Assembly: GCA_002238685.1 (NCBI GenBank)
Contig: MPMV01000001.1
Location: 1 to 64,000 of the forward strand
Direction of reading: 5' to 3'
Source: a bacterium EF100-94H03 bin56
Lineage (GTDB): Bacteria; Pseudomonadota; Alphaproteobacteria; SP197
DNA length: 64,000 bases
In this document: one piece after another, positions 31,026 through 42,520 of the stretch
Layout of the letters: every line of letters begins with the position of its first letter
Numbering within the stretch: position 1 is the first letter of the stretch
Notes under the pieces: generated by a model
Told to the model about the DNA's origin: nothing
Databases searched by the model: none
The model's input: only the letters and a program-made list of their open reading frames with translations
Position numbers and translations under genes: made by a program

Positions 31026-31829
31026 TCAGCCGGCGAAGCTGTAGGAATCCATGTCGAACCGAGGCTGACCCGTGACACCCGTCAGGCCGCCGTCGCAGAC
31101 GAGCATGGTGGAGTTGACGAAGCTGGCATCGTCACTGGCAAGAAAGCAGATCGCGGCGGCGCATTCCTCGGGCGTGCCAATGCGGCCGAGAGGGGTCGAT
31201 CGGGCATAGGCTGCAGCCTGTTCGGGTGCTGTCTCGAGGCTACCCAGCATGCGCGGGGTGCCGATGGGGCCGGGACAGATCGCGTTGGCACGGATGTTGT
31301 AACGCCCGACTTCCCAGGCGAGGCACTGGGTGAGATTCCAGATTGCGGCCTTCGCGGCATTGTAGGCGCCCCACCCGGGGTCGCCGGCAAGGCCGGAGAT
31401 TGACGACATGTTGACGATGGCTCCGCCGCCCACCCCCTTCATCCGGCGTACAGCCAGGCGGCAGCAGATGACAGTCGACAGCACGTTGAGACGCCACAGG
31501 CGTTCCCAGTCGTCGCTGGCCAGGTCCTCGATGGTCCCGAACATGGAGTTTCCGGCGATATGGATCGAGGCATCGAGCCTGCCGTCAGGCATGTCATCGA
31601 GTGTCGCGAAGGCAGCCTCGATCCCGGATTCCTCCATGACATCCGCCACGACCGCCGTCACGTTCCGGCCCTCATCCTTCAACGGACCGACCGCATCCGC
31701 GAGATCGCCGGCCTCGTGGTCTACGGCGACGACGGTGGCGCCTTCGCCCGCCAGCCGCTCCATCGTTGCCCTGCCGATGCCGTTGGCGGCGCCTGTCACG
31801 AGGGCCACCCTGTCTTCGAACCGGTTCAT
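31026..31829 (-). CDS. Short-chain dehydrogenase/reductase
   Basis: A 267-residue SDR. VALVTGAANGIG is at residues 7-18, an atypical IHIAGNS replaces the NNAG motif, the Ser is in NMSSISG and the Tyr-Lys pair in YNAAKAA. The Asp in AVDHEA after beta-2 suggests NAD(H). The C-terminus is extended (QPRFDMDSYSFAG). The start ATG 31829 (MNRFEDRVALV) gives a normal N-terminus; ATG 31856 would add nine residues. The MFS gene follows closely. Confidence 0.85.
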   Translation of the reverse strand: MNRFEDRVALVTGAANGIGRATMERLAGEGATVVAVDHEAGDLADAVGPLKDEGRNVTAVVADVMEESGIEAAFATLDDMPDGRLDASIHIAGNSMFGTIEDLASDDWERLWRLNVLSTVICCRLAVRRMKGVGGGAIVNMSSISGLAGDPGWGAYNAAKAAIWNLTQCLAWEVGRYNIRANAICPGPIGTPRMLGSLETAPEQAAAYARSTPLGRIGTPEECAAAICFLASDDASFVNSTMLVCDGGLTGVTGQPRFDMDSYSFAG

Positions 31830-31930
31830 GGTCACGACATAGCGCCTCCGGCTCACCGACGCCAGACAATCCGCAAAGCAGGACGCGGATGGGCTATCCT
31901 CGCCTGATTGGCAGATTCCGGAGAACGAGG

Positions 31931-33775
31931 GTGCCCGTTTCGTCTCTTCTGGCGTCGGTGATCGATGCGGTCTCCGAAGCCGCAGACATGCTGGTCAGCG
32001 AATCGCGTCGCCCGGAAGGGCCACGTGGCGCCGGTGACAAGGCCGACATCGACGTGGAGATCGAGAACCATCTCGCCATGCGACTCATGGCCCTCCTGCC
32101 GGCCCGTTTTGTGGGTGAGGAAACGCCGGTTCGTCCCGGTGACGGATCATCCTGTTGCTGGCTGGTGGATCCACACGACGGCACGTGGGCCTGGCTTCAG
32201 GGATATCGCGGCTCATCGGTGTCGGTCGCCCTCATCGACGACGGGGTGCCGGTACTTGGCGTCGTCTGCGCGCCCATGAGTCCCGATCGCGGCCGGGATC
32301 TCATCGCCTGGGCCGAAGGCCACGCCAATCTCATCCGCAATGGTGCCGAAGTCACGGTCGATCTTGCCGCGGACGAACTCGACCGCAAGGCACGTGTCTT
32401 CGTCGACCACACCGCATCGGCCACCCCGGTGGCATGGGGCCGCGCCGTGGCGCCGGCACGGTTCATCTCCCTGCCGGGAATCGCCTACAGGCTGGCCCGG
32501 GTGGCGGTCGGGGACGGCGTCGCCACCCTCTCCCTGGGTGGGCCACGGGGCATCGACTACGCTGCCGGCCATGCCCTGCTACGGGGCGCCGGCGGTGTGC
32601 TTCTCGATGAAACGGGCAAGGAGGTCACCTATGCCCCCGATGGCGCCAGCCGAGTCCGGCGGTGTTTCGCCGGGGCGCCCGCTGCCGCACGTGAGTTGGC
32701 CGCCCGGTCTTGGCCACCACGGCGGGGCGAGGAGCCGTCACGGCTGCGGTCCAGGCCCAACTGGCCCGCTAGGGTGAGCGACGCCGTGCTCGACCGGTCC
32801 AGGGGCTGTCTCTTCGGCCAGGTGGTCGGCGACAACCTGGGTGCGCTCGTGGAATTCATGACTGCGAGGGCGATACAGCAACGCCATCCCGGGGGCGTTC
32901 GCGATCTCGAGGATGGCGGGTGCTGGAACATCCTCTCAGGCCAGGCGACGGATGACAGCGAACTCGCCCTCGCACTTGCCAGGACCCTCGTCGGCACCGG
33001 GCGCCATGACGAGGAGGCGATCGCGGCCGCCTACGGCGCATGGCTGCGGTCCAGGCCCTTCGATTGCGGCAACACCATCGCCCAGGCGCTCGGCCCCGCC
33101 TCTCGCGCTGCCGACGGATCGAAGGCCGCGGCCGCCCGGTTCTCGGCCAGCAGGGAGAGTCAGGCAAACGGATCTCTCATGCGGATCGCGCCCATCGGCA
33201 TCTGGGCCCGGGACCCGGATCTCGCGGACCAGACGGCCCGTGGGGACTCGACGCTGACCCATCCACGCCCGATTTGCGCCGACGCCTGTGGCACATTCGC
33301 CGCTGCCATCGCGGAGGGACTGCGATCCGGGGACCGCGGCGCCATGATCGAAGTGGCCCGGGCCCATTGCGTCACAGAGGAGATCAGGAACTGTCTCGCC
33401 AATGCTGACGCCGGCACATGGCCGGAAAACTTCGACAGCCATTCCATGGGCTGGGTTCTCATCGCCTTCCAGAATGCCTTCTGCCACCTCGCCCGAGGCG
33501 ACATGATCGAGACGACCCTGGTGACGACAGTAGCCAGGGGAGGGGATACCGACACCAACGCTGCCATCGCCGGCGCCCTGACGGGAGCGGCTGATGGACT
33601 GGGGTCCTTTCCCCGGCGCTGGGTCCTGCCGGTGATGGCCTGCCGCCCCCACCAGGCCCTCGGTGCAAAGAAACCGCGTCCGATGATCTACTGGCCCGAT
33701 GACCTGGCCGACCTCGCGGAGTCCCTTGTCACCGCCCGCCCGAAGGGTCGCGATCCCGGTGACACCTCATCCTGA
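31931..33775 (+). CDS. Fusion of an inositol-monophosphatase-like domain and an ADP-ribosylglycohydrolase
   Basis: About 614 residues in two enzyme domains. Residues 1-260 are inositol-monophosphatase-like with all three metal motifs: VGEETP (62-66), DPHDGT (80-85, usually DPIDGT) and IDYAAGHALLRGAGG (208-222). Residues 285-614 form an ADP-ribosylglycohydrolase with RGCLFGQVVGDNLGALVE, QATDDSELALAL (TDD motif, 340-343), NGSLMRIAPIGI and GGDTDTNAAIAGALTGA. Both active sites look intact. The GTG at 31931 has GGAGAACGAGG before it; ATG 31889 is the alternative. It may remove ADP-ribose from a target and dephosphorylate a linked product; substrates are unknown. The HigA gene overlaps its end convergently. 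Confidence 0.85.
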   Translation: MPVSSLLASVIDAVSEAADMLVSESRRPEGPRGAGDKADIDVEIENHLAMRLMALLPARFVGEETPVRPGDGSSCCWLVDPHDGTWAWLQGYRGSSVSVALIDDGVPVLGVVCAPMSPDRGRDLIAWAEGHANLIRNGAEVTVDLAADELDRKARVFVDHTASATPVAWGRAVAPARFISLPGIAYRLARVAVGDGVATLSLGGPRGIDYAAGHALLRGAGGVLLDETGKEVTYAPDGASRVRRCFAGAPAAARELAARSWPPRRGEEPSRLRSRPNWPARVSDAVLDRSRGCLFGQVVGDNLGALVEFMTARAIQQRHPGGVRDLEDGGCWNILSGQATDDSELALALARTLVGTGRHDEEAIAAAYGAWLRSRPFDCGNTIAQALGPASRAADGSKAAAARFSASRESQANGSLMRIAPIGIWARDPDLADQTARGDSTLTHPRPICADACGTFAAAIAEGLRSGDRGAMIEVARAHCVTEEIRNCLANADAGTWPENFDSHSMGWVLIAFQNAFCHLARGDMIETTLVTTVARGGDTDTNAAIAGALTGAADGLGSFPRRWVLPVMACRPHQALGAKKPRPMIYWPDDLADLAESLVTARPKGRDPGDTSS

Positions 33776-34075
33776 AGCCCGCGGCCGGTCGCTGTCGTTC
33801 AATACAGGCAGACGGGCGATCGCCGCGCCGTTCTTCTGCCCCGCACGCCGCAATTCGTAGAGTTTCTGAAGGTTGAGCCAGAACTCGCCCGACGTCCCGA
33901 AGAAGCGCCCCAGGCGCAGCGCCGTGTCTCCGGTGACGGCGCGGCGGCCGTTGAGAATCTCGGTGATGCGGTTCACCGGAACCTCGATTCTCCGGGCCAG
34001 TTCGGCCGCACTCATGGCGAGCGCGTCGAGATCCTCCCTCAGTGTCTCGCCGGGATGGATGGGATCGCGCATCAT
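33767..34075 (-). CDS. higA: HigA-family antitoxin
   Basis: A 102-residue protein with an XRE-type helix-turn-helix (residues about 12-65). HPGETLREDL near the N-terminus and AELARRIEVPVNRITEILNG are the family hallmarks, followed by DTALRLGRFFGTSGEFWLNLQ. It starts at ATG 34075 (tandem MM). The toxin gene lies directly upstream on the same strand, in the usual HigBA order, but is broken. Its end overlaps the end of the fusion enzyme gene by nine bases. Confidence 0.9.
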   Translation of the reverse strand: MMRDPIHPGETLREDLDALAMSAAELARRIEVPVNRITEILNGRRAVTGDTALRLGRFFGTSGEFWLNLQKLYELRRAGQKNGAAIARLPVLNDSDRPRASG

Positions 34076-34086
34076 GACGTGCCTCC

Positions 34087-34359
34087 TTACCGATGGTAGT
34101 CGATGATTTCCACGTTGTCCGGGCCAGGGCTTCCCTCCGGCCACTCGAAACAGATCCGCCACTGATCGTTGATCCGGATACTCCACTGTCCCGTCCGGCG
34201 GCCCTTTAAGGGATTCCAGCCGGTTTCCGGGACGCGACAGGTCGTGAAGGCCGGTCGCCGCGTCAAGCTGGTTCAGCTTGCGCGCGAAACCAGAGAACCC
34301 CGCGCCCGATCGCCGCGGTAGAAGGTCTCCGTATTCTTGTCCGCGAAGCCAACGATCAA
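34087..34359 (-). pseudogene. higB: HigB-type toxin gene with two compensating frameshifts
   Basis: Reading leftward: the N-terminus (IVGFADKNTETFYRGDRARG) is in one frame; the middle (FARKLNQLDAATGLHDLSRP, then GNRLESLKG) is in another; the end (RTGQWSIRINDQWRICFEWP, then VEIIDYHR and TAA) is back in the first frame. A TGA at 34273-34275 interrupts the first frame. The breaks fall at a G run near 34302 and at CCCTTTAAGGG (34202-34212), consistent with one lost and one gained base. Full length would be about 90 residues, as for HigB/RelE toxins. The start would be a TTG at 34359. Confidence 0.75.
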
Positions 34360-34947
34360 CGCGCTTCCGATCGGACTGCTACGACGGCTTCGAGCGTGGA
34401 CACCGTCTCCGCGTTACGTCAAGGATGAAGCCCGCCGTCCTCCGAACAGGACCAGCACGCGCTCCGGTCGCCTTGCAGGGGTGCCACCGACTACCACCCC
34501 GGTCTCCGGCAGTCGTAGCGCCGCGAGGCATGTGTGCTGGCGGATTGCGGCGGACGCCATCACGATCTGCCGCCCGAGATCGACGGAAGCCTGGCCGGAA
34601 ACGTCGTCACGTCCGACGACATCATGACTGGAGCGCGAGGATGTCTCTATCGGCAACGCAGAGAGGATCCCCTGCCGGAACCTGGTCATGGTGACGGTCC
34701 AGGATTCCGTCGAAGATCTCCTGGCCGGCGAGGCGTCCAGCCGCGTGTCGAGGAACGGTGACTGCTTGAGGACCCGGACCGTTCGCGGCCACCGCATTGC
34801 GCGCGAACTCGACCGGCCCGTCGGCGACGACATCGCGTGGGAACTCGAAATCATCGAGCTCGCGCCGGAAGTCCGAAATCCGGCCGAAGACTATGCATGA
34901 CCCGTGACTTGCGGCAGGATGACGAACAGGAAACGGAGGATCTGCTC
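34360..34947. other. Degenerate stretch before the solute-binding protein gene
   Basis: No intact gene. Several open frames on both strands are short and mutually overlapping with no consistent codon bias. Part of it (about 34500-34640) resembles the end of a PhyH gene and is listed separately. A rightward frame ending at 34900 (last residues ELEIIELAPEVRNPAEDYA) looks protein-like but is unidentified and may be another fragment. Confidence 0.45.
34500..34640 (-). pseudogene. Remnant of the C-terminus of a PhyH-type dioxygenase
   Basis: Bases 34515-34530 (CGTAGCGCCGCGAGGC) and 34532-34545 (TGTGTGCTGGCGGA) are identical to two blocks at the 3' end of the intact PhyH gene at 40677-40725, where they are separated by 17 further bases. 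In protein terms the remnant reads AAIRQHT and then shifts frame where PhyH has AVRQHTRLLAPHASRRY. Upstream residues (VVGRDDVSGQ) weakly match PhyH VRGRHEGN. No full gene remains. Confidence 0.55.
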
Positions 34948-36054
34948 ATGACGAATTTCCATGATGTTTTCCGGAACCCGCAGCTCGACCGGCGGCAACT
35001 CGCTTCCCTCGCCGCGGCTGCAGGAGTTGCCATGTTCACGACGCCCATGGCCCTGCGCCCGGCACGGGCCGCCGGCGGTGACCTCGATGTCTTCGAGTGG
35101 GCCGGTTACGATCTTCCGGAGTTCCACCAGGCCTACATGGACCAGCATGGCGCCTCTCCCGAATTCGCCATGTTCGGTGAACTCGAGGAGGCGTTGCAGA
35201 AACTGCGCGGCGGTTTTGTCACCGATGTCACCCATCCCTGCACCAGCAGTATCGGCCGCTGGGCTGACGCCGGCGTCATTCAGGCCGTCGACACGGATCG
35301 GCTCACCCACTGGGGCGATATCTTCCCCAGCATGCGCGAGATCAGGGCGCTCCACTACGAGGACACCATCATCGGCGTGCCGGCAGACTGGGGCAACTCG
35401 TCCATCCTCTACCGGTCCGACCTTGTCGAGCCCATGGAGAACTCCTACAACCTCTTTCTCGACGAGCGCTACGCGGGAAAGATGGCGTTCTTCGATTCCG
35501 CCGACGCCTTCGCCCAGGTCTGCGGGCTGATCCTCGGAGTCCATCCCTTCACGATGGATGAAAAGGAAATTGCCGAGGCTGCCGACATCATGCGGCGCAT
35601 CCACGCCAACCTGCGATTCTACTGGACCGACCCGACGCAGATCGAGCAGGCGCTCGCCGCCGGCGAGATCGTGTTGTCCTATTCCTGGAACGGCTCGGCC
35701 AAGAACCTGAAGTCACAAGGGCTGGAAGTCGCCTTCATGGATCCCAGGGAAGGGATCCTCACGTGGGTGTGCGCCCTGGCGCTGGGCACGGGCAATCCCG
35801 GAAACCTTGACCTCGCCTATGATTTCATCAATGCCTGGACCTCGCCCGAGGCCGGCAAGAACCTGATCGAGATGTACGGCTACGGACATTCCAACACCAT
35901 GGCGTTCCCGCTGGTCGCCGCGGAAGTCCTGGATTCACTGGGAATTGCCGACCCCGACGCCATGATGGCCAAGGGCACCTTCATCGAGGAGATGGCCCCC
36001 GACACCCGTGAAGCGGTGATCAGGGCCTTCGACGACGTGAAGTCCGGTATCTGA
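34948..36054 (+). CDS. PotD-like extracellular solute-binding protein
   Basis: A 368-residue periplasmic protein. The N-terminus has a twin-Arg-like segment (LDRRQLASLAAAAGVAMF) ending near ALRPARA, so export by Tat or Sec is likely. The mature part fits the spermidine/putrescine-binding family: DLDVFEWAGYDLPEF, DVTHPCTSSIGRWADAG, GVPADWGNSSILYRSD and EIVLSYSWNGSAKNL. ATG 34948 is chosen because GGAGGA sits seven bases upstream. No permease or ATPase genes accompany it, so it is an orphan component here. Confidence 0.87.
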   Translation: MTNFHDVFRNPQLDRRQLASLAAAAGVAMFTTPMALRPARAAGGDLDVFEWAGYDLPEFHQAYMDQHGASPEFAMFGELEEALQKLRGGFVTDVTHPCTSSIGRWADAGVIQAVDTDRLTHWGDIFPSMREIRALHYEDTIIGVPADWGNSSILYRSDLVEPMENSYNLFLDERYAGKMAFFDSADAFAQVCGLILGVHPFTMDEKEIAEAADIMRRIHANLRFYWTDPTQIEQALAAGEIVLSYSWNGSAKNLKSQGLEVAFMDPREGILTWVCALALGTGNPGNLDLAYDFINAWTSPEAGKNLIEMYGYGHSNTMAFPLVAAEVLDSLGIADPDAMMAKGTFIEEMAPDTREAVIRAFDDVKSGI

Positions 36055-36107
36055 GGATTGCGGGCAAGGACCCTGCTTGCGCCGCGAGCAGGGTCCTTGC
36101 GCCTTCG

Positions 36108-36806
36108 ATGACCGCCGCTTTCGACATCCGCTCCTTCCCCGAGCCGATCGGTGCCGCCCTGGTGGAACGCCTCGCGCAGGCGGAGACCGCCACGATCGGC
36201 CATGCCCGGCTCCACGGGTTTCTCGATTCGGGCATCCGCCCGGTGATTGCCGACCGCCGCATCGCCGGGACCGCCGTCACCGTGCGCATCCCCGGGGCGG
36301 ACTCGACATTGTTGCACCACGCCCTGGGTCATGTGCGGACCGGCGACATCCTCATGATCGACCGTTGCGGGGACGACCTCCACGCGTGCTGGGGAGGCTC
36401 GCTCACGGTCGCCGCCAGGGCGCGGAATCTCGCCGGCGCGGTGATCGACGGCCGCGCCACGGACTTCGGCGACATCAGGCGCATCGGTCTTCCGGTGTGG
36501 TGCCGGGGGCCGTCGCCGATCACGACGCGCCTGCTCGCGGCGGGAGGCGGACTCAACGTCCCGATCACAGTAGGGGGTGTCGTCGTCAACCCCGGTGACG
36601 CGGTGATTGCCGACGACAACGGTGTCGTCGTGCTCGCCCCCGGCGAGGCGGAGCTCTGGGCGAGCTACGCGCTTGACGAGCAGACCGAGGAGATTCCATT
36701 CAACGAGGCGCTGGAGCGCGGGGAACGGCTCGGCATCCTTTCCGGAGCGACGGCCATGATTGAGGAGGCCACCGGCCTCGATCTCAGTGGGGACAAGAGA
36801 ACATGA
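36108..36806 (+). CDS. RraA-like / HMG-aldolase-family protein
   Basis: A 232-residue member of the RraA/dimethylmenaquinone-methyltransferase-like superfamily. The core has GTAVTVRIPGADSTLLHHAL, TGDILMIDRCGDD, AWGG-like CWGGSLTVAARARNLAG, and GAVIDGRATDFGDIR where the Arg and Asp of class II pyruvate aldolases sit; GGVVVNPGDAVIADDNGVVV is the conserved end. Some relatives cleave 4-hydroxy-4-methyl-2-oxoglutarate or decarboxylate oxaloacetate, others inhibit RNase E. Its stop overlaps the aldolase gene that follows, so a catabolic role is preferred. Confidence 0.85.
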   Translation: MTAAFDIRSFPEPIGAALVERLAQAETATIGHARLHGFLDSGIRPVIADRRIAGTAVTVRIPGADSTLLHHALGHVRTGDILMIDRCGDDLHACWGGSLTVAARARNLAGAVIDGRATDFGDIRRIGLPVWCRGPSPITTRLLAAGGGLNVPITVGGVVVNPGDAVIADDNGVVVLAPGEAELWASYALDEQTEEIPFNEALERGERLGILSGATAMIEEATGLDLSGDKRT

Positions 36807-37546
36807 CCGGCGATCTCGCGATCTGGCTCTCCACTCCCCATACGGCCATGATCGAAATTGCCCGCGACCTGGGGTTCCGGCGCGTCGTGCTCGACATCGA
36901 GCACGGTGTCTTCGACCTCGAACGCCTGGACAGGCTGGTGCCCTTCGCGCGCGCCCTCGGCATGGAGGTCCACGCCAAGATTCTCGGCCCTGAGGCCATC
37001 CCCATCCAGCAGGCGCTCGATCTTGGATGCGACAGTGTCATCATTCCTCACATAGGGGATCGTGATCACGCGTCCCGCACATGTGCTGCCGCCAAGTACC
37101 CGCCGCTGGGCATACGCAGCTTCGCGGGCGGCCGGACCGTCGCCTACGATGCACCCGCGGACGGCTGGTTCGAGGCGGAGAACCGGCGGCAACTGTGCTT
37201 TCCCATGATCGAGAGTGCGGCGGCCCTTGCGGACATCGATGCGATCCTTGCGCTCGACACGGTGGACGGGGTGTTCGTCGGACCGTCCGATCTCGCACTG
37301 TCGTGCGGACGGGACCGCTACCGCTTCGCCGCCGAAGACCGCCGGGACCTGGAGACCATCGCCGGCGCGGCGGCGGTCGCCGGCAAGCCCTGGATCATGC
37401 CGGGCTGGACAGCCGAGGAACGCAGTCTTGCCCGGACACTGGGAACCGCCTGGATGGTCGTCGCCGACGAGACGGGGTCGATCCATTCGGGTCTGGTCGC
37501 TGCACTCGAGGCGGTTGCCGCCGAGACCGGAGAGTCCGGACGATGA
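36803..37546 (+). CDS. HpcH/HpaI-family aldolase
   Basis: A 247-residue class II pyruvate aldolase homologue. Signature elements are in order: VLDIEHGVFDLERL, KILGPEAIPIQQALDLG, KYPPLGIRSFAGGR, LCFPMIESAAAL (metal Glu) and DGVFVGPSDLALS (metal Asp). It should cleave a 4-hydroxy-2-oxo acid to pyruvate or a related 2-oxo acid plus an aldehyde. It overlaps by four bases both the RraA-like gene before it and the ThDP enzyme after it. Confidence 0.9.
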   Translation: MTGDLAIWLSTPHTAMIEIARDLGFRRVVLDIEHGVFDLERLDRLVPFARALGMEVHAKILGPEAIPIQQALDLGCDSVIIPHIGDRDHASRTCAAAKYPPLGIRSFAGGRTVAYDAPADGWFEAENRRQLCFPMIESAAALADIDAILALDTVDGVFVGPSDLALSCGRDRYRFAAEDRRDLETIAGAAAVAGKPWIMPGWTAEERSLARTLGTAWMVVADETGSIHSGLVAALEAVAAETGESGR

Positions 37547-39165
37547 CGACGCCAAGCACGGGAGAAGCCCTGATACATCTTCTCAGGGCCTACGGCGTCG
37601 ACACGGTCTTCGGCATGCCCGGTGTCCACACTCTCGACTTCTATCGAGCGCTTCCGGAAGCCGGAATCCGCCACATCGGCGTACGCCACGAGCAAGGGGC
37701 GGGTTTCATGGCGGATGGCTATGCTCGCATCTCCGGCCGGCCCGGGGTCTGCCTGCTGATCAGCGGTCCGGGCATCACCAACGCCGCGACGCCGATTGGC
37801 CAGGCCTTCTCCGATTCGCAGCCCATGCTGGTTCTCTCTTCCGTCGCCAGCCTCGCCGATCTCGGCATGGGCAGGGGACGGCTTCACGAGATTCCCGACC
37901 AGCGGGCCGTGACCGCGCCGATCACACACTTCAGCGAGTTGGCAACGACACCCGCGCAGGCAACGGAACTCGTCCATCGCGCCTTTGCCCACTTCGCCTC
38001 CCACAGGCCCCGTCCCTGTCATATCTCGGTTCCGCTGGATGTGCTGCCTCAACCCTTTGAGGGCACGATCGAGGCAGCGCGCCTGCCGGGCCTGCCGGCG
38101 CCGGACAGCGACGCACTCGATGCGGCCGCGTCGCTCGCGTCCTCATGCGGTCCCGCAGTGATCATTGCAGGAGGAGGCTCGGTGGACGCGGCCGACGAGG
38201 TGCGCGCGCTCGCCGAGCGCCTGGGCGCGGCTGTCCTTCCGACGATTGCCGGCAAGGGTGTCATGCCCGCGGACCACCCCCTGTCGCTCGAGATGACAGC
38301 GGACCAGCCGGGCACGCAATCCTTCATCTGTGAAGCCGGACTGGTCATTGCCGTCGGCACGGAGTTTGCGGAACCCGACTTCTGGATCCCCGAACCCCTC
38401 CCGGTGACCGGCAAGCTCATCCGCATCGACATCGATGCGGGGACGCTGGCCCGGGACTGGCGCGCCGATGTCGCCATCCTTGGCGATGCCGCCCGGTCCC
38501 TCGACGGTATCCTGCGGCGTCTCGAGGGACGCAACACCGGGCCCGGATACGGTGGCGATGCCCTCGATGCGGCGCGCGAGGCTGGACGCGCCGATTTCGG
38601 ATCCCTCGAGCGGCTGCACGAACCGGTCATCCGGGCCATCCGGAATGCGCTACCGCCCGACGGATACTGTTTCACGGACATGACGCAGATCGCCTATTCG
38701 GGCTATGCGCTCTTTCCGGCGAACAGACCGCGCCAGTGGTTCTTTCCCGCAGGTTACGGCACTCTGGGCTTCGCCCTGCCCGCGGCGATCGGAGCCGCGT
38801 TCGCCGCACCCGAACGGTCCGGCGCCGTGCTCATCGGCGATGGCGGGCTGCAGTTTACCGTGGCCGAACTCGCGACGGCCGTCGAACACGAACTCCCTCT
38901 CGCCATCGTGCTCTGGGACAACCACAGCCTCAAGCAGATCGCCCGATTCATGCGGGAACAGCAGATCGAGGAAATCGGCGTGCACCCCAGGAACCCCGAT
39001 TTCGCCATGCTGGCACAAGCCTATGGCATGGCCTTCTCGGAACCCTCCGGCCTGGAGGAACTCAGCGCATGCATGCGGCAGGCATGGAAGACGAAAGGCC
39101 CGACTCTCGTGCGCATCGACGAGTTCGCGGACTGGGTCCAGGAAGCAGCGCGCGAGTCACGCTGA
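37543..39165 (+). CDS. Thiamine-diphosphate decarboxylase, AruI / acetolactate-synthase-like
   Basis: A 540-residue ThDP enzyme starting at ATG 37543 (GTCCGGACGATG overlap with the aldolase stop). The N-terminal domain has VDTVFGMPGVHTLDFYRAL and VRHEQGAGFMADGYARISG with the catalytic Glu; the middle domain has GPAVIIAGGGSVDAADEV; the C-terminal ThDP-binding motif is GDGGLQFTVAELATAVEH, then LWDNHSLKQI. The N-terminal wording and GKGRGRLHE-type loop (here MGRGRLHEIPDQRAV) strongly recall 5-guanidino-2-oxopentanoate decarboxylase (AruI), so a 2-oxo acid from an arginine-like amino acid is a plausible substrate. Acetolactate synthase activity is less likely. Confidence 0.88.
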   Translation: MTTPSTGEALIHLLRAYGVDTVFGMPGVHTLDFYRALPEAGIRHIGVRHEQGAGFMADGYARISGRPGVCLLISGPGITNAATPIGQAFSDSQPMLVLSSVASLADLGMGRGRLHEIPDQRAVTAPITHFSELATTPAQATELVHRAFAHFASHRPRPCHISVPLDVLPQPFEGTIEAARLPGLPAPDSDALDAAASLASSCGPAVIIAGGGSVDAADEVRALAERLGAAVLPTIAGKGVMPADHPLSLEMTADQPGTQSFICEAGLVIAVGTEFAEPDFWIPEPLPVTGKLIRIDIDAGTLARDWRADVAILGDAARSLDGILRRLEGRNTGPGYGGDALDAAREAGRADFGSLERLHEPVIRAIRNALPPDGYCFTDMTQIAYSGYALFPANRPRQWFFPAGYGTLGFALPAAIGAAFAAPERSGAVLIGDGGLQFTVAELATAVEHELPLAIVLWDNHSLKQIARFMREQQIEEIGVHPRNPDFAMLAQAYGMAFSEPSGLEELSACMRQAWKTKGPTLVRIDEFADWVQEAARESR

Positions 39166-39708
39166 CATCGAGATCCGTATGCGATCGTGCCGTATCGAGA
39201 CCTGCGTGACGGCGACCGTGCAGTTCCATGAGGTGCGGACCATCCCGTGATCCATCCGGCAACCGCTCTCATCGAACCGCGAGCGCCGGGCCGTGGAGAA
39301 CGAGACGTCCAGTTCGACGAGGATGCCTGTCTGGCACGCACCGCCCTCCATCCTCGGCAAGGCACCGAAACCTCGCTGAACTTCGTGGTCAATCGGTCAC
39401 AAGCCTTCAACGCCGCACAGGTGAGGCAGGCATTGACGGCTCGGGGCGCCAGCGTCTGCAAACGATCTTGCGAGTGTGGGCGTTGACGGCGACCTCCATG
39501 ACCGCGGTCTCATTGTCGTCATTGGCGGTAAGGGCCACGCTGCTCTTTTTTCTCCAGGAGCGCGGGCCGCGGGTACGGCCGTGGCCACATACACCGCGTT
39601 GGTAGCCCAGATTTTTCCCGGTTCCCTCCTTCTTCTGCTTTTCACTTCCGGCGTCAAATGATTGAATCAAGGCACTGGTATGAACCCGGTGTTGGGAGAC
39701 CCACCATC
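39166..39708. other. Gene-free stretch between the ThDP enzyme and the dioxygenase
   Basis: About 540 bases with only short competing frames on both strands and no recognisable domain. The leftward frames at 39157-39360 and 39407-39670 are protein-like in composition but match nothing I know; they may be debris. No convincing terminator or repeat was seen. Confidence 0.45.
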
Positions 39709-40548
39709 ATGTCTGACTTCGCTGTACATCCCTACTCCACGGCCATCGGCGCTGAAGTGGCGGGAGTCGACCTGTCCCGTGAGCTCGACGACGTGACGTG
39801 GACCGCACTACGCAACGCCTACCTTGAGCATCTCGTCCTCTTCTTTCGTGACCAGACCCTCACGCCCGAGCAACAGGTCGCATTCTCGCGTCGATTCGGC
39901 CGCCTCGAGGAATACCCCTTCGTGCACGGCATCGACGGTTTTCCCGAACTCATCGACATCGTCAAGGAGCCCGACGAGGTCATCAATTTCGGCCATCTCT
40001 GGCACACGGACATGACCTTTCGCGAACAACCGCCGGCTGGCGCGGTTCTTTATGCCCTCGAGGTTCCCCCGGTTGGCGGCGACACGTTGTTTGCCAACAT
40101 GTACCTTGCCTGGGAGATGCTGTCGGAAGGCATGAAGACCGTGCTGCGTCAACTCCGTGCCATCCACGATTCGGGTACGCCGCAACGCCACACCGCCACC
40201 TTCAAGGGCATGAAGGTGCAGCACAGGCAGGGATCGGAGCGACAGGTCACGCCCCACCCATTTGTCCGGGTGCACCCCGAGACCGGCCGGGAATCACTCC
40301 TCATCAGTCCCAGCTACTGCCATCGCATCGAAGGCATGACCGATGAGGAAGGCAGGATGATCCTGGACCACCTCGAGCGCCATGCAACGCAGGACATCCT
40401 CACCTGCCGCTTCCGCTGGCGACCCGGTACGGTCGTCATCTGGGACAACCGCTGCACCATGCACATTGCCCTCGAGGATGACCTTGCCGCCATGCGCGGC
40501 GACACGGGCTTTCGCCGCGTCATGCGGCGCGCCACCATCGGTGTCTGA
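39709..40548 (+). CDS. TauD/TfdA-family Fe(II)/2-oxoglutarate dioxygenase
   Basis: A 279-residue protein. The iron facial triad is visible as LWHTDMTF (His and Asp, near residue 103) and RCTMHIAL (distal His, near 258), with the 2-oxoglutarate Arg in FRRVMRRATI. Other family features: GAEVAGVDLSREL at the N-terminus and PPVGGDTLFANMYLAWEML. ATG 39709 is chosen because GGGAGAC precedes it and the protein then begins FAVHPYSTAIGAE. It probably hydroxylates or desulphonates a small acid; substrate unknown. Confidence 0.9.
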   Translation: MSDFAVHPYSTAIGAEVAGVDLSRELDDVTWTALRNAYLEHLVLFFRDQTLTPEQQVAFSRRFGRLEEYPFVHGIDGFPELIDIVKEPDEVINFGHLWHTDMTFREQPPAGAVLYALEVPPVGGDTLFANMYLAWEMLSEGMKTVLRQLRAIHDSGTPQRHTATFKGMKVQHRQGSERQVTPHPFVRVHPETGRESLLISPSYCHRIEGMTDEEGRMILDHLERHATQDILTCRFRWRPGTVVIWDNRCTMHIALEDDLAAMRGDTGFRRVMRRATIGV

Positions 40549-40552
40549 CATC

Positions 40553-40619
40553 GCATGCGGCATTGCAAATCCCGACGTGCGAGAATCCTGAATGTTGCGC
40601 CGTGTGCCCGATGACCTGG
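40553..40619 (-). pseudogene. Remnant of the N-terminus of a PhyH-type dioxygenase
   Basis: Reading leftward this segment encodes SSGTRRNIQDSRTSGFAMP, clearly related to the start of the intact PhyH protein (ASGTRHDIADYRASGFAAP). Base identity over about 63 positions is roughly 70 percent. The start codon has become AGG. It stops five bases before the TauD stop codon region, so the rest of that gene copy is missing. It lies just downstream of the intact PhyH gene, as expected for a tandem duplicate. Confidence 0.65.
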
Positions 40620-40665
40620 CCAATCACGCGGTGGATCTTGGCGTCGCCCGTCCGGGAGGGCGCAA

Positions 40666-41463
40666 TCAGAACGTGACGTAGCGCCGCGAGGCGTGGGGCG
40701 CGAGCAGGCGTGTGTGCTGGCGGACTGCGTCGCGTGATAGATCGCTCGAAGGCGGCTTCTCCAGAACGAGATTGCCCTCGTGGCGCCCCCTCACCGACAT
40801 TGCCGAGACCGGTGGTCCACCGGTCCACCTGATGCGTCCCGGGAGATAGCGGACGCAGATTCCCGTCCGAGGATTGTCCGTCGTGTTCGGGCCGGATCCA
40901 TGAACAAGCAGGGCGTGATGGAGCGACATGCTGCCCGGTTCGAGTTCGTTGTCGTAAACCGGCCACGCCGCGGTATCGATTCTCGCGGTCTGACCATGGG
41001 ACAGCATGTTGTCCTCGCCCTGGCGTTCGTCGTGGGCCACGCGGCCGAGCCGGTGGGTCCCTGGCAGGAAGCGCATGCAGCCGTTGACCGAGGTCGCCGG
41101 CGTGAGAGCAATCCAGGCCGTGACGATGTCGAGCGGATCGAGGTTCCAGTAGCCGGCATCCTGGTGAAAGGAAATGTGGCGCCGGTCCCGCGCGGGCTTG
41201 GTCCAGATGTCGGCGCTCATCACCATGATGTCCGGACCCGTCAGCCGCTCCACCGTATCGAGGATGGAAGGAAGGCGGACCAGGCGGTCCATCCACGTGA
41301 AGAGCAAGTAGGACTTGTAGTACCAGGGATGCGGCAGGTCGACGTCGACCGCGTCGAGCCTGGCGAGGATGTGGGCGGCGTCATCAGCCGGCATGGCCAT
41401 GAGTGGCGCCGCAAATCCCGAGGCGCGATAATCCGCGATATCGTGGCGTGTTCCCGATGCCAT
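40666..41463 (-). CDS. PhyH (phytanoyl-CoA-dioxygenase-like) Fe(II)/2-oxoglutarate oxygenase
   Basis: A 265-residue protein. The iron ligands are in ISFHQDAGYWNLD (His-x-Asp near residue 115) and SLHHALLVHGSGPN (distal His near 205). The conserved NGCMRFLPGTHRLG and the 2-oxoglutarate-type Arg in NPRTGICVRYLP are present. ATG 41463 (MASGTRHDIADYR) is chosen; an earlier in-frame ATG adds 17 residues overlapping the divergent gene's leader. It is transcribed divergently from the KARI-like gene 50 bases away. A decayed second copy flanks it. Confidence 0.87.
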   Translation of the reverse strand: MASGTRHDIADYRASGFAAPLMAMPADDAAHILARLDAVDVDLPHPWYYKSYLLFTWMDRLVRLPSILDTVERLTGPDIMVMSADIWTKPARDRRHISFHQDAGYWNLDPLDIVTAWIALTPATSVNGCMRFLPGTHRLGRVAHDERQGEDNMLSHGQTARIDTAAWPVYDNELEPGSMSLHHALLVHGSGPNTTDNPRTGICVRYLPGRIRWTGGPPVSAMSVRGRHEGNLVLEKPPSSDLSRDAVRQHTRLLAPHASRRYVTF

Positions 41464-41512: not shown

Positions 41513-42520
41513 ATGGGCAGGTTCTATTTTGATGACGATGCCGATCCGGCCCTGCTCGACGGCAGGACGGTCGCCGTGATCGGCTACGGCAACCAGGGAC
41601 GCAGCCAGGCGCTCAACATGAAGGACCGTGGCGTCGACGTGATCGTCGGCAACATCGAGGACGAGTATGCCGAAAGCGCACGGGCTGACGGCTGGGATCT
41701 CCTGACCATCGAGGAGGCGGCCGCCCGGGCTGATATCCTGATGATGCTGACGTCCGATGACAGTCAGCCGGATGTCTACGAAAACTGGGTGAAGAAAAGC
41801 CTCAAACCCGGTGATGTCATGTGCTTTGCTCATGGTTTCAACATCCATTACGGCGAGATCGTGCCGGACCCGCAGACGGATGTCGTCATGGTGGCGCCAC
41901 GCATGCTCGGAGAGGGTGTGCGGGCGACGTTCCTCGAGGGGCGCGGCTTTCCAAGCCTCATTGCCGTGGCTCAGGATGGCAGTGGCAGGGCTCTTGACAT
42001 GTGCCTTGCGATCTCCTGGGCGATCGGCACGACAAGAATGGGAGCGCTGGAATCGAGTTTCGGTGAGGAGGTCCTCATCGATCTCTTCGAGGAACACCAG
42101 CCGGGACTCTACGCATTGCGCGCCATGTACACGGCACTCGTCGAGGCGGGCTGTTCTCCCGAGGCGGTCATGCTTGACCTCTACGCGTCCGGAGAGAGCG
42201 TCAAGTTCGCCGAGTACGGGCGCGACCTCGGCGCCTTCGAGCGCATGAAACGGACCAGCGCCACGGCGCAGTTCGGCCATCTCGTGTGGTCGAAACAGTA
42301 CTTCGACGAGGAAAAGACGCTCGAGGGCATGCGCCGGATGATCGCCAACATCAAGGACGGCAGCTTCATCCGTGCCCTGAAGGCCGAACGGCACAAGAAC
42401 CGGCCGGCGGTCGAGGCCGTCTGGCAGGAGAACAACGATCACGATCTTGTTCGTCGTGAACACGACCTCTACCAGCTGCTCGGGCGCCGGGCGAAGGGTG
42501 CGTCGACCCCCGGGACCTGA
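41513..42520 (+). CDS. Ketol-acid-reductoisomerase-like protein with altered active site
   Basis: A 335-residue class I KARI homologue. The N-terminal Rossmann domain is complete (VAVIGYGNQGRSQALNMKDRG, LTSDDSQPDVYENW, FAHGFNIHYGEI). The catalytic part differs from IlvC: the Lys of the APK motif is Arg (APRMLGEGVR), the first metal helix keeps Asp and Glu (LIDLFEEHQ), but the ECLHE-type second metal helix reads LDLYASGES. It may therefore be a different reductase or isomerase. The next genes are hyuA and hyuB, on the same strand after 51 bases, so it is unlikely to serve valine synthesis. Confidence 0.82.
   Translation: MGRFYFDDDADPALLDGRTVAVIGYGNQGRSQALNMKDRGVDVIVGNIEDEYAESARADGWDLLTIEEAAARADILMMLTSDDSQPDVYENWVKKSLKPGDVMCFAHGFNIHYGEIVPDPQTDVVMVAPRMLGEGVRATFLEGRGFPSLIAVAQDGSGRALDMCLAISWAIGTTRMGALESSFGEEVLIDLFEEHQPGLYALRAMYTALVEAGCSPEAVMLDLYASGESVKFAEYGRDLGAFERMKRTSATAQFGHLVWSKQYFDEEKTLEGMRRMIANIKDGSFIRALKAERHKNRPAVEAVWQENNDHDLVRREHDLYQLLGRRAKGASTPGT

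Follow-up and report, generated by a model that had tools for sequence, protein, structure and literature searches.

Does a gene island that lies between the two ends of a PhyH gene mean that one insertion split that gene? The question is raised by a locus on contig C48 of genome G000 (4.5 Mb, 98% complete), from which we analysed a stretch of 64,000 nucleotides, here called the window. A preliminary description had proposed that a tandem duplicate of the intact PhyH gene, PhyH1, was interrupted by insertion of a block spanning 34.6-40.55 kb and then eroded. Comparison with related genomes supports this proposal in part: its general outline holds, but its details do not. Very probably, the 3' tail of an ADP-ribosylglycohydrolase fusion gene (ADPRGH) was duplicated in tandem together with PhyH, and the extra copy, PhyH2, was split stepwise by a TauD cassette and then by a metabolic block, with additional changes in G000.

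All genomes compared at the PhyH locus are drafts. The nearest relatives there are metagenome-assembled genomes of about 90% DNA identity, whose contig and genome labels were paired on the basis of identical coordinates and spacing: L042 belongs to G006, L041 to G004, and L043 to G005. In the latter two the locus is broken between contigs, G004 being represented by L087 plus L041 and G005 by L088 plus L043. In the tree G006 branches off first, then G000, with G004 and G005 as sisters (concatenated support 0.99 and 1.0); some single-gene trees resolve G006 only without strong support.

The two ends of PhyH2

The argument starts from the features at the borders of the island and in its flanks:

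31766-33775, plus strand: inositol monophosphatase-like / ADP-ribosylglycohydrolase fusion gene, ADPRGH (PF03747, 1.3e-53; PF00459, 1.6e-22)
34514-34552, possibly to about 34599, minus strand: PhyH2 C-terminal remnant (BLASTN, profile, comparison with other PhyH loci)
40544-40616, minus strand: PhyH2 N-terminal remnant (profile match E = 1e-7, gene positions 5-80)
40604-40682, plus strand: duplicate of the ADPRGH 3' tail, marking where the tandem duplication joins the N-remnant (DNA matches to L042 and L087)
40666-41463, minus strand: intact PhyH1 gene (PF05721, 8.5e-24, 85.5 bits against a cutoff of 22)
41513-42520, plus strand: ketol-acid reductoisomerase (KARI)-like gene, the conserved right flank (PF07991, 1.5e-57; synteny)

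PhyH1 orthologues in G004, G005, and G006 are 88% identical. With a DNA profile built from four orthologous intact PhyH genes the N-terminal remnant scored 24.4 bits against a best background of 4.3 bits in 118 kb of unrelated DNA from the same genus, and BLASTN aligned it with 38/49 identical positions (E = 5e-7), demonstrating that the remnant placed earlier at 40553-40619 is real and lies at 40544-40616. The N-end is present in all four species (G000, G004, G005, and G006), with profile counterparts in L043 (E = 1.2e-4), in L042, and, weakly, in L041 (E = 0.34). In the window and in L043 it reads SGTRR-IQ-x-x-R where PhyH1 reads SGTRHDIADYR, the differences being shared by the two.

The C-terminal remnant was recovered by BLASTN in two collinear pieces, 34526-34552 (24/27 identical, E = 3e-4) and 34514-34532 (18/19, E = 0.02), between which 17 nt of the intact gene are deleted. 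It is short and, by profile alone, weak (E = 0.6). Its counterpart in L042 (12880-12953, gene positions 711-798) scored 20.8 bits against a background of 4.3 (E = 1.2e-6) and carries a 14-nt deletion overlapping the 17-nt deletion of the window. The C-remnant described earlier at 34500-34640 is thus real but was drawn too long, 34514-34552 being its only safe part; 34553-34640 was rejected as PhyH sequence, as from about 34600 it is the end of a plus-strand OYE-like flavin oxidoreductase gene. A deletion with CCGCG at both borders (near 34520 and 34738 of the window) has left only some 10 nt of the C-end, past the shared stop codon, in G004 (L087), and G005 (L088) has none of it.

Against PhyH1 the remnants score 27 and 22-24, against 22 other PhyH loci of G000 14-17, and shuffles reach 17-19 at most. 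This shows that both belong to the subfamily of PhyH1, and the origin from different subfamilies that had been named as grounds for dropping the idea was not found. The same strand, the C-then-N order, and the five intervening genes (SBP, RraA-like, HpaI-like, TPP enzyme, and TauD, listed below) were likewise confirmed. PhyH genes are numerous, with 35 matches in genome G000, and one adjoins a TauD cluster in L091 and L089, which would suit a reading of the remnants as independent fragments of different PhyH genes, the PhyH flanking that cluster (G001, G003) supplying the C-end. We consider such an origin very unlikely: PhyH1 is the best match for both ends among the tested loci of its genome, the L042 C-end has SDLPREAFRQ where PhyH1 has SDLSRDAVRQ, it still directly follows the ADPRGH stop codon, like PhyH1, and a duplicated ADPRGH tail adjoins the N-end.

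This second tail, missed in the preliminary description, corresponds to the last ~75 bp of ADPRGH and is sited between the N-remnant and PhyH1. It matches the ADPRGH end of L042 over 77 nt (76.6%, E = 2e-9) and that of L087 over 92 nt (81.5%). The N-end is joined to it in the window, L041, and L043, and the join has diverged in L042; a PhyH start joined to an ADPRGH tail is what duplication of a unit of ADPRGH tail plus PhyH predicts. At the junction lies a CATCGGG-like sequence common to both borders, present in two copies nine bases apart in L041 and L043 and in one copy in G000. The ADPRGH gene of L087 and of L042 ends like the second copy, ..AAC[G/A]TGACGTAG, with its stop codon within the antisense of the PhyH C-terminus, from which we infer an ancestral order in which ADPRGH and PhyH converged with a short overlap. 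The duplicated unit, with the ADPRGH 3' end as its left border, would have spanned about 0.87 kb and reached as far as the start of PhyH. One or both PhyH2 ends lie at matching positions in three congeneric genomes besides G000, and together with the common subfamily and the duplicated tail this supports reading the remnants as opposite ends of a single tandem copy of PhyH. That the similarities are due to chance, for which the profile value of the window C-remnant could be quoted, is extremely improbable given the N-end, the L042 C-end, and the tail (E = 1e-7, 1.2e-6, and 2e-9) and given that place, order, and strand are all right.

The remnants do not add up to a whole gene, as about 610 of the 801 bp of PhyH2, its middle, are missing, and with three quarters of the gene lost PhyH2 presumably has no function now. 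None of the 16 genomes of the family contains an intact second PhyH copy, which lowers the certainty that PhyH2 was once a full gene, although it probably was. An un-duplicated ADPRGH-PhyH pair was found neither in the family nor in the order, the search of the order covering the same 16 genomes. A candidate middle remnant at 39127-39230 (gene positions 175-276, E = 0.03-0.16, 6.4 against 4.3 bits of background) was rejected; it overlaps the end of the TPP enzyme coding sequence. The same weak match recurs behind the TPP gene in L043 and L087, and hence in three genomes.

Within the family the ADPRGH fusion occurs only in G000, G004, G005, and G006 (4/16 genomes). In the congener L044 the order is SDR-GcvT-PhyH without ADPRGH, a GcvT-like gene occupying its place, and the spacing in L046-L049 is identical. 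The ADPRGH match of G005 (L088, G005:C343:7714-9585) crosses one TGA at its extreme end because the left-edge deletion shortens the reading frame there.

One insertion or several

Between the two ends the window contains a metabolic block, a decayed gene at its left edge, and the first gene of a cassette:

34600-34900, plus strand: eroded remainder (C-terminal part) of an NADH:flavin oxidoreductase (OYE-like) gene, at the block's left edge (PF00724)
34948-36054, plus strand: PotD/PotF-like extracellular solute-binding protein (SBP) gene, block (PF13416, 2.1e-22; NCBIfam PotF/PotD below cutoff)
36108-36806, plus strand: RraA-like aldolase family gene, block (PF03737, 8.1e-35)
36803-37546, plus strand: HpcH/HpaI-type aldolase gene, block (PF03328, 3.7e-19)
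37543-39165, plus strand: TPP enzyme of the 5-guanidino-2-oxopentanoate decarboxylase type, block (NCBIfam NF005712, 613.6 bits, cutoff 500)
39709-40548, plus strand: TauD-family dioxygenase gene, first of the cassette (PF02668, 9.7e-67)

The OYE-like remnant matches an intact homologue in G000 (L107, 1120-2985) at 73% DNA identity over 85 nt. Between C-end and TauD the block is found only in G000, G004, and G005. G004 (L087/L041) and G005 (L088/L043) show the order block, TauD, ureohydrolase ends, methyltransferase, N-end, tail, and PhyH1; L041 and L043 stop short of the left side, and in the left-side contigs L087 and L088 little or nothing of the C-remnant survives. In G006 (L042) the order is ADPRGH, C-end, TauD, ureohydrolase remnant, methyltransferase, N-end with a diverged tail, and PhyH1: there are no SBP, RraA, HpaI, or TPP genes at the locus, the counterpart of 33.75-39.68 kb of the window is absent, yet TauD, a decayed ureohydrolase, and a methyltransferase already separate the two ends of PhyH2. 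Thus, the insert came together in no fewer than two steps, which speaks against a single insertion of the 34.6-40.55 kb block. A contiguous second PhyH gene, expected earlier for relatives without the block, does not exist in L042. The lack of any second PhyH gene in such relatives had also been put forward as speaking against the duplication, and taken literally L042 lacks one; its remnants, however, show that the duplication still stands.

The whole 34.6-40.55 kb could instead have entered PhyH2 as one unit, as first proposed, if G006 later lost the part from SBP to decarboxylase. Both scenarios need few changes of the block on the tree, and parsimony alone permits a loss, as G006 branches first. 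We nevertheless regard this version as unlikely: in other congeners TauD clusters separately with ureohydrolase and methyltransferase, in G006 itself a second version of the block forms its own unit without TauD on another contig (L094, 7307-11632, 76% DNA identity), and a loss in G006 would require a clean excision of the block, the C-end and the TauD leader being about 50 bp apart. A gain of the block after the G006 split is simpler, since the block also occurs as an independent unit, and probably describes the direction of this step. L094 also contains a transposase-like ORF at 780-1679, some 6 kb past one end of the block.

In G001, G003, and G007 TauD, an arginase-family ureohydrolase, and a methyltransferase lie together, intact and at a locus unrelated to PhyH1, and the genes, their order, and their orientation are identical to those at PhyH2. 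Unlike there, the cluster here lies inside PhyH2, its ureohydrolase has decayed in three species, and both ureohydrolase and methyltransferase have been lost in G000. Remains of the ureohydrolase are found between TauD and methyltransferase, both ends in L041 and L043 (residues 17-32 and 299-325) and the front only in L042. Most likely, the cassette arrived whole inside PhyH2 and later lost its middle gene. The same final order would result if a circle carrying ADPRGH tail plus PhyH, with the cassette already in PhyH, had integrated by a single crossover, the join of N-end and ADPRGH tail being the circle junction, without tandem duplication in place. This route requires an extra molecule, and no integrase or replication gene was seen beside the cassette among the L042 ORFs, making it quite improbable. 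In G004 a reverse-transcriptase domain, likely of a group II intron, lies immediately upstream of TauD (L041, 3619-4206), and the G004 contig differs from the other genomes at this site.

Target-site duplications, which had been suggested as a check, were not detected beyond chance: at five pairs of edges, which are eroded, we found repeats of only 5-7 nt, a length reached by 27-96% of shuffles. No other insertion signature was found at any edge.

Taken together, the arrangement common to four species lets the order of events be read. A ~0.87-kb unit, the last ~75 bp of ADPRGH and the whole convergent PhyH, would have been tandemly duplicated in the ancestor of the four congeneric species, making the ADPRGH-adjacent copy, PhyH2, redundant and a potential landing place for insertions. 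TauD, ureohydrolase, and methyltransferase would have been the first insert between the PhyH2 ends, the middle ~610 bp being lost. After G006 had split off, the block, from the decayed OYE-like gene through SBP, RraA, and HpaI to the guanidino-oxopentanoate decarboxylase, would have entered between C-end and TauD.

Changes confined to G000

Several features of the window were seen in G000 only, or belong to an insert found there only:

33756-34513, minus strand: G000-only insert between ADPRGH tail and C-remnant (absent here in L042, L087, and L088)
33767-34186, minus strand: HigA-type antitoxin gene (NCBIfam TIGR02607 HigA, 92 bits, cutoff 47.7)
34090-34345, minus strand: probable broken HigB-like frame (stop in frame; HigB identity by reading only)
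39205-39611, no strand assigned: G000-specific stretch of ~400 bp (not present in L043 or L087; no recognisable gene)

In G000 a HigA-type module would have entered at the border of ADPRGH and C-end. A stop or frameshift interrupts the HigB-like frame, and the HigA-type/HigB-like pair (33767-34345) could represent a defective toxin-antitoxin module or an artefact of assembly. A further change would be the appearance of ~400 bp before TauD; this stretch at 39.2-39.6 kb was considered as a repeated element and rejected, being single copy in the genome. Finally, ureohydrolase and methyltransferase, which are missing from the PhyH2 locus of G000, would have been deleted. The N-remnant adjoins TauD in the window because this deletion extends from behind TauD to the N-remnant.

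Known systems and gene content

Tandem gene duplications in which one of the copies decays are well described. The PhyH2 locus resembles such cases in the extra copy beside an intact one, the junction of unit borders, and the progressive decay, and differs from them in that PhyH2 keeps its two ends only, with foreign genes in between. Gene turnover at chromosomal integration hotspots between conserved genes is also well described (PMC5635113), and successive gene sets in the interval from SDR to PhyH/KARI (GcvT, ADPRGH, TauD cassette, decarboxylase block, and HigA module) are similar to it, whereas here one locus in few genomes is concerned. The PhyH2 locus is a combination of tandem duplication with decay and hotspot-like gene turnover, not a single insertion that split one gene. 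Four related genomes hold a readable record of how a redundant tandem copy became an insertion site in which gene sets were stacked and then lost, correcting the natural assumption that an island between two gene ends must have split the gene. The rearrangement is of an ordinary kind and implies no new mechanism or function. A literature search on PhyH in sponge symbionts returned nothing on this locus.

Judged from gene annotation, the decarboxylase-type TPP enzyme and the lost ureohydrolase suggest a link of the locus to guanidino compounds. The genes that enter such a reading are the ureohydrolase, the TauD-type hydroxylase, the 5-guanidino-2-oxopentanoate decarboxylase, the two aldolase families, and the polyamine-type binding protein. 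That the PhyH2 scar successively gathered guanidino-compound genes, forming a novel pathway for the breakdown of a hydroxylated guanidino acid beside the PhyH oxygenase, is a speculative and rather doubtful extension. Another methyltransferase-ureohydrolase pair lies on the same contig (G000:C48:210453-211877), its ureohydrolase being 77% identical, and possibly stands in for the pair that is missing at PhyH2.
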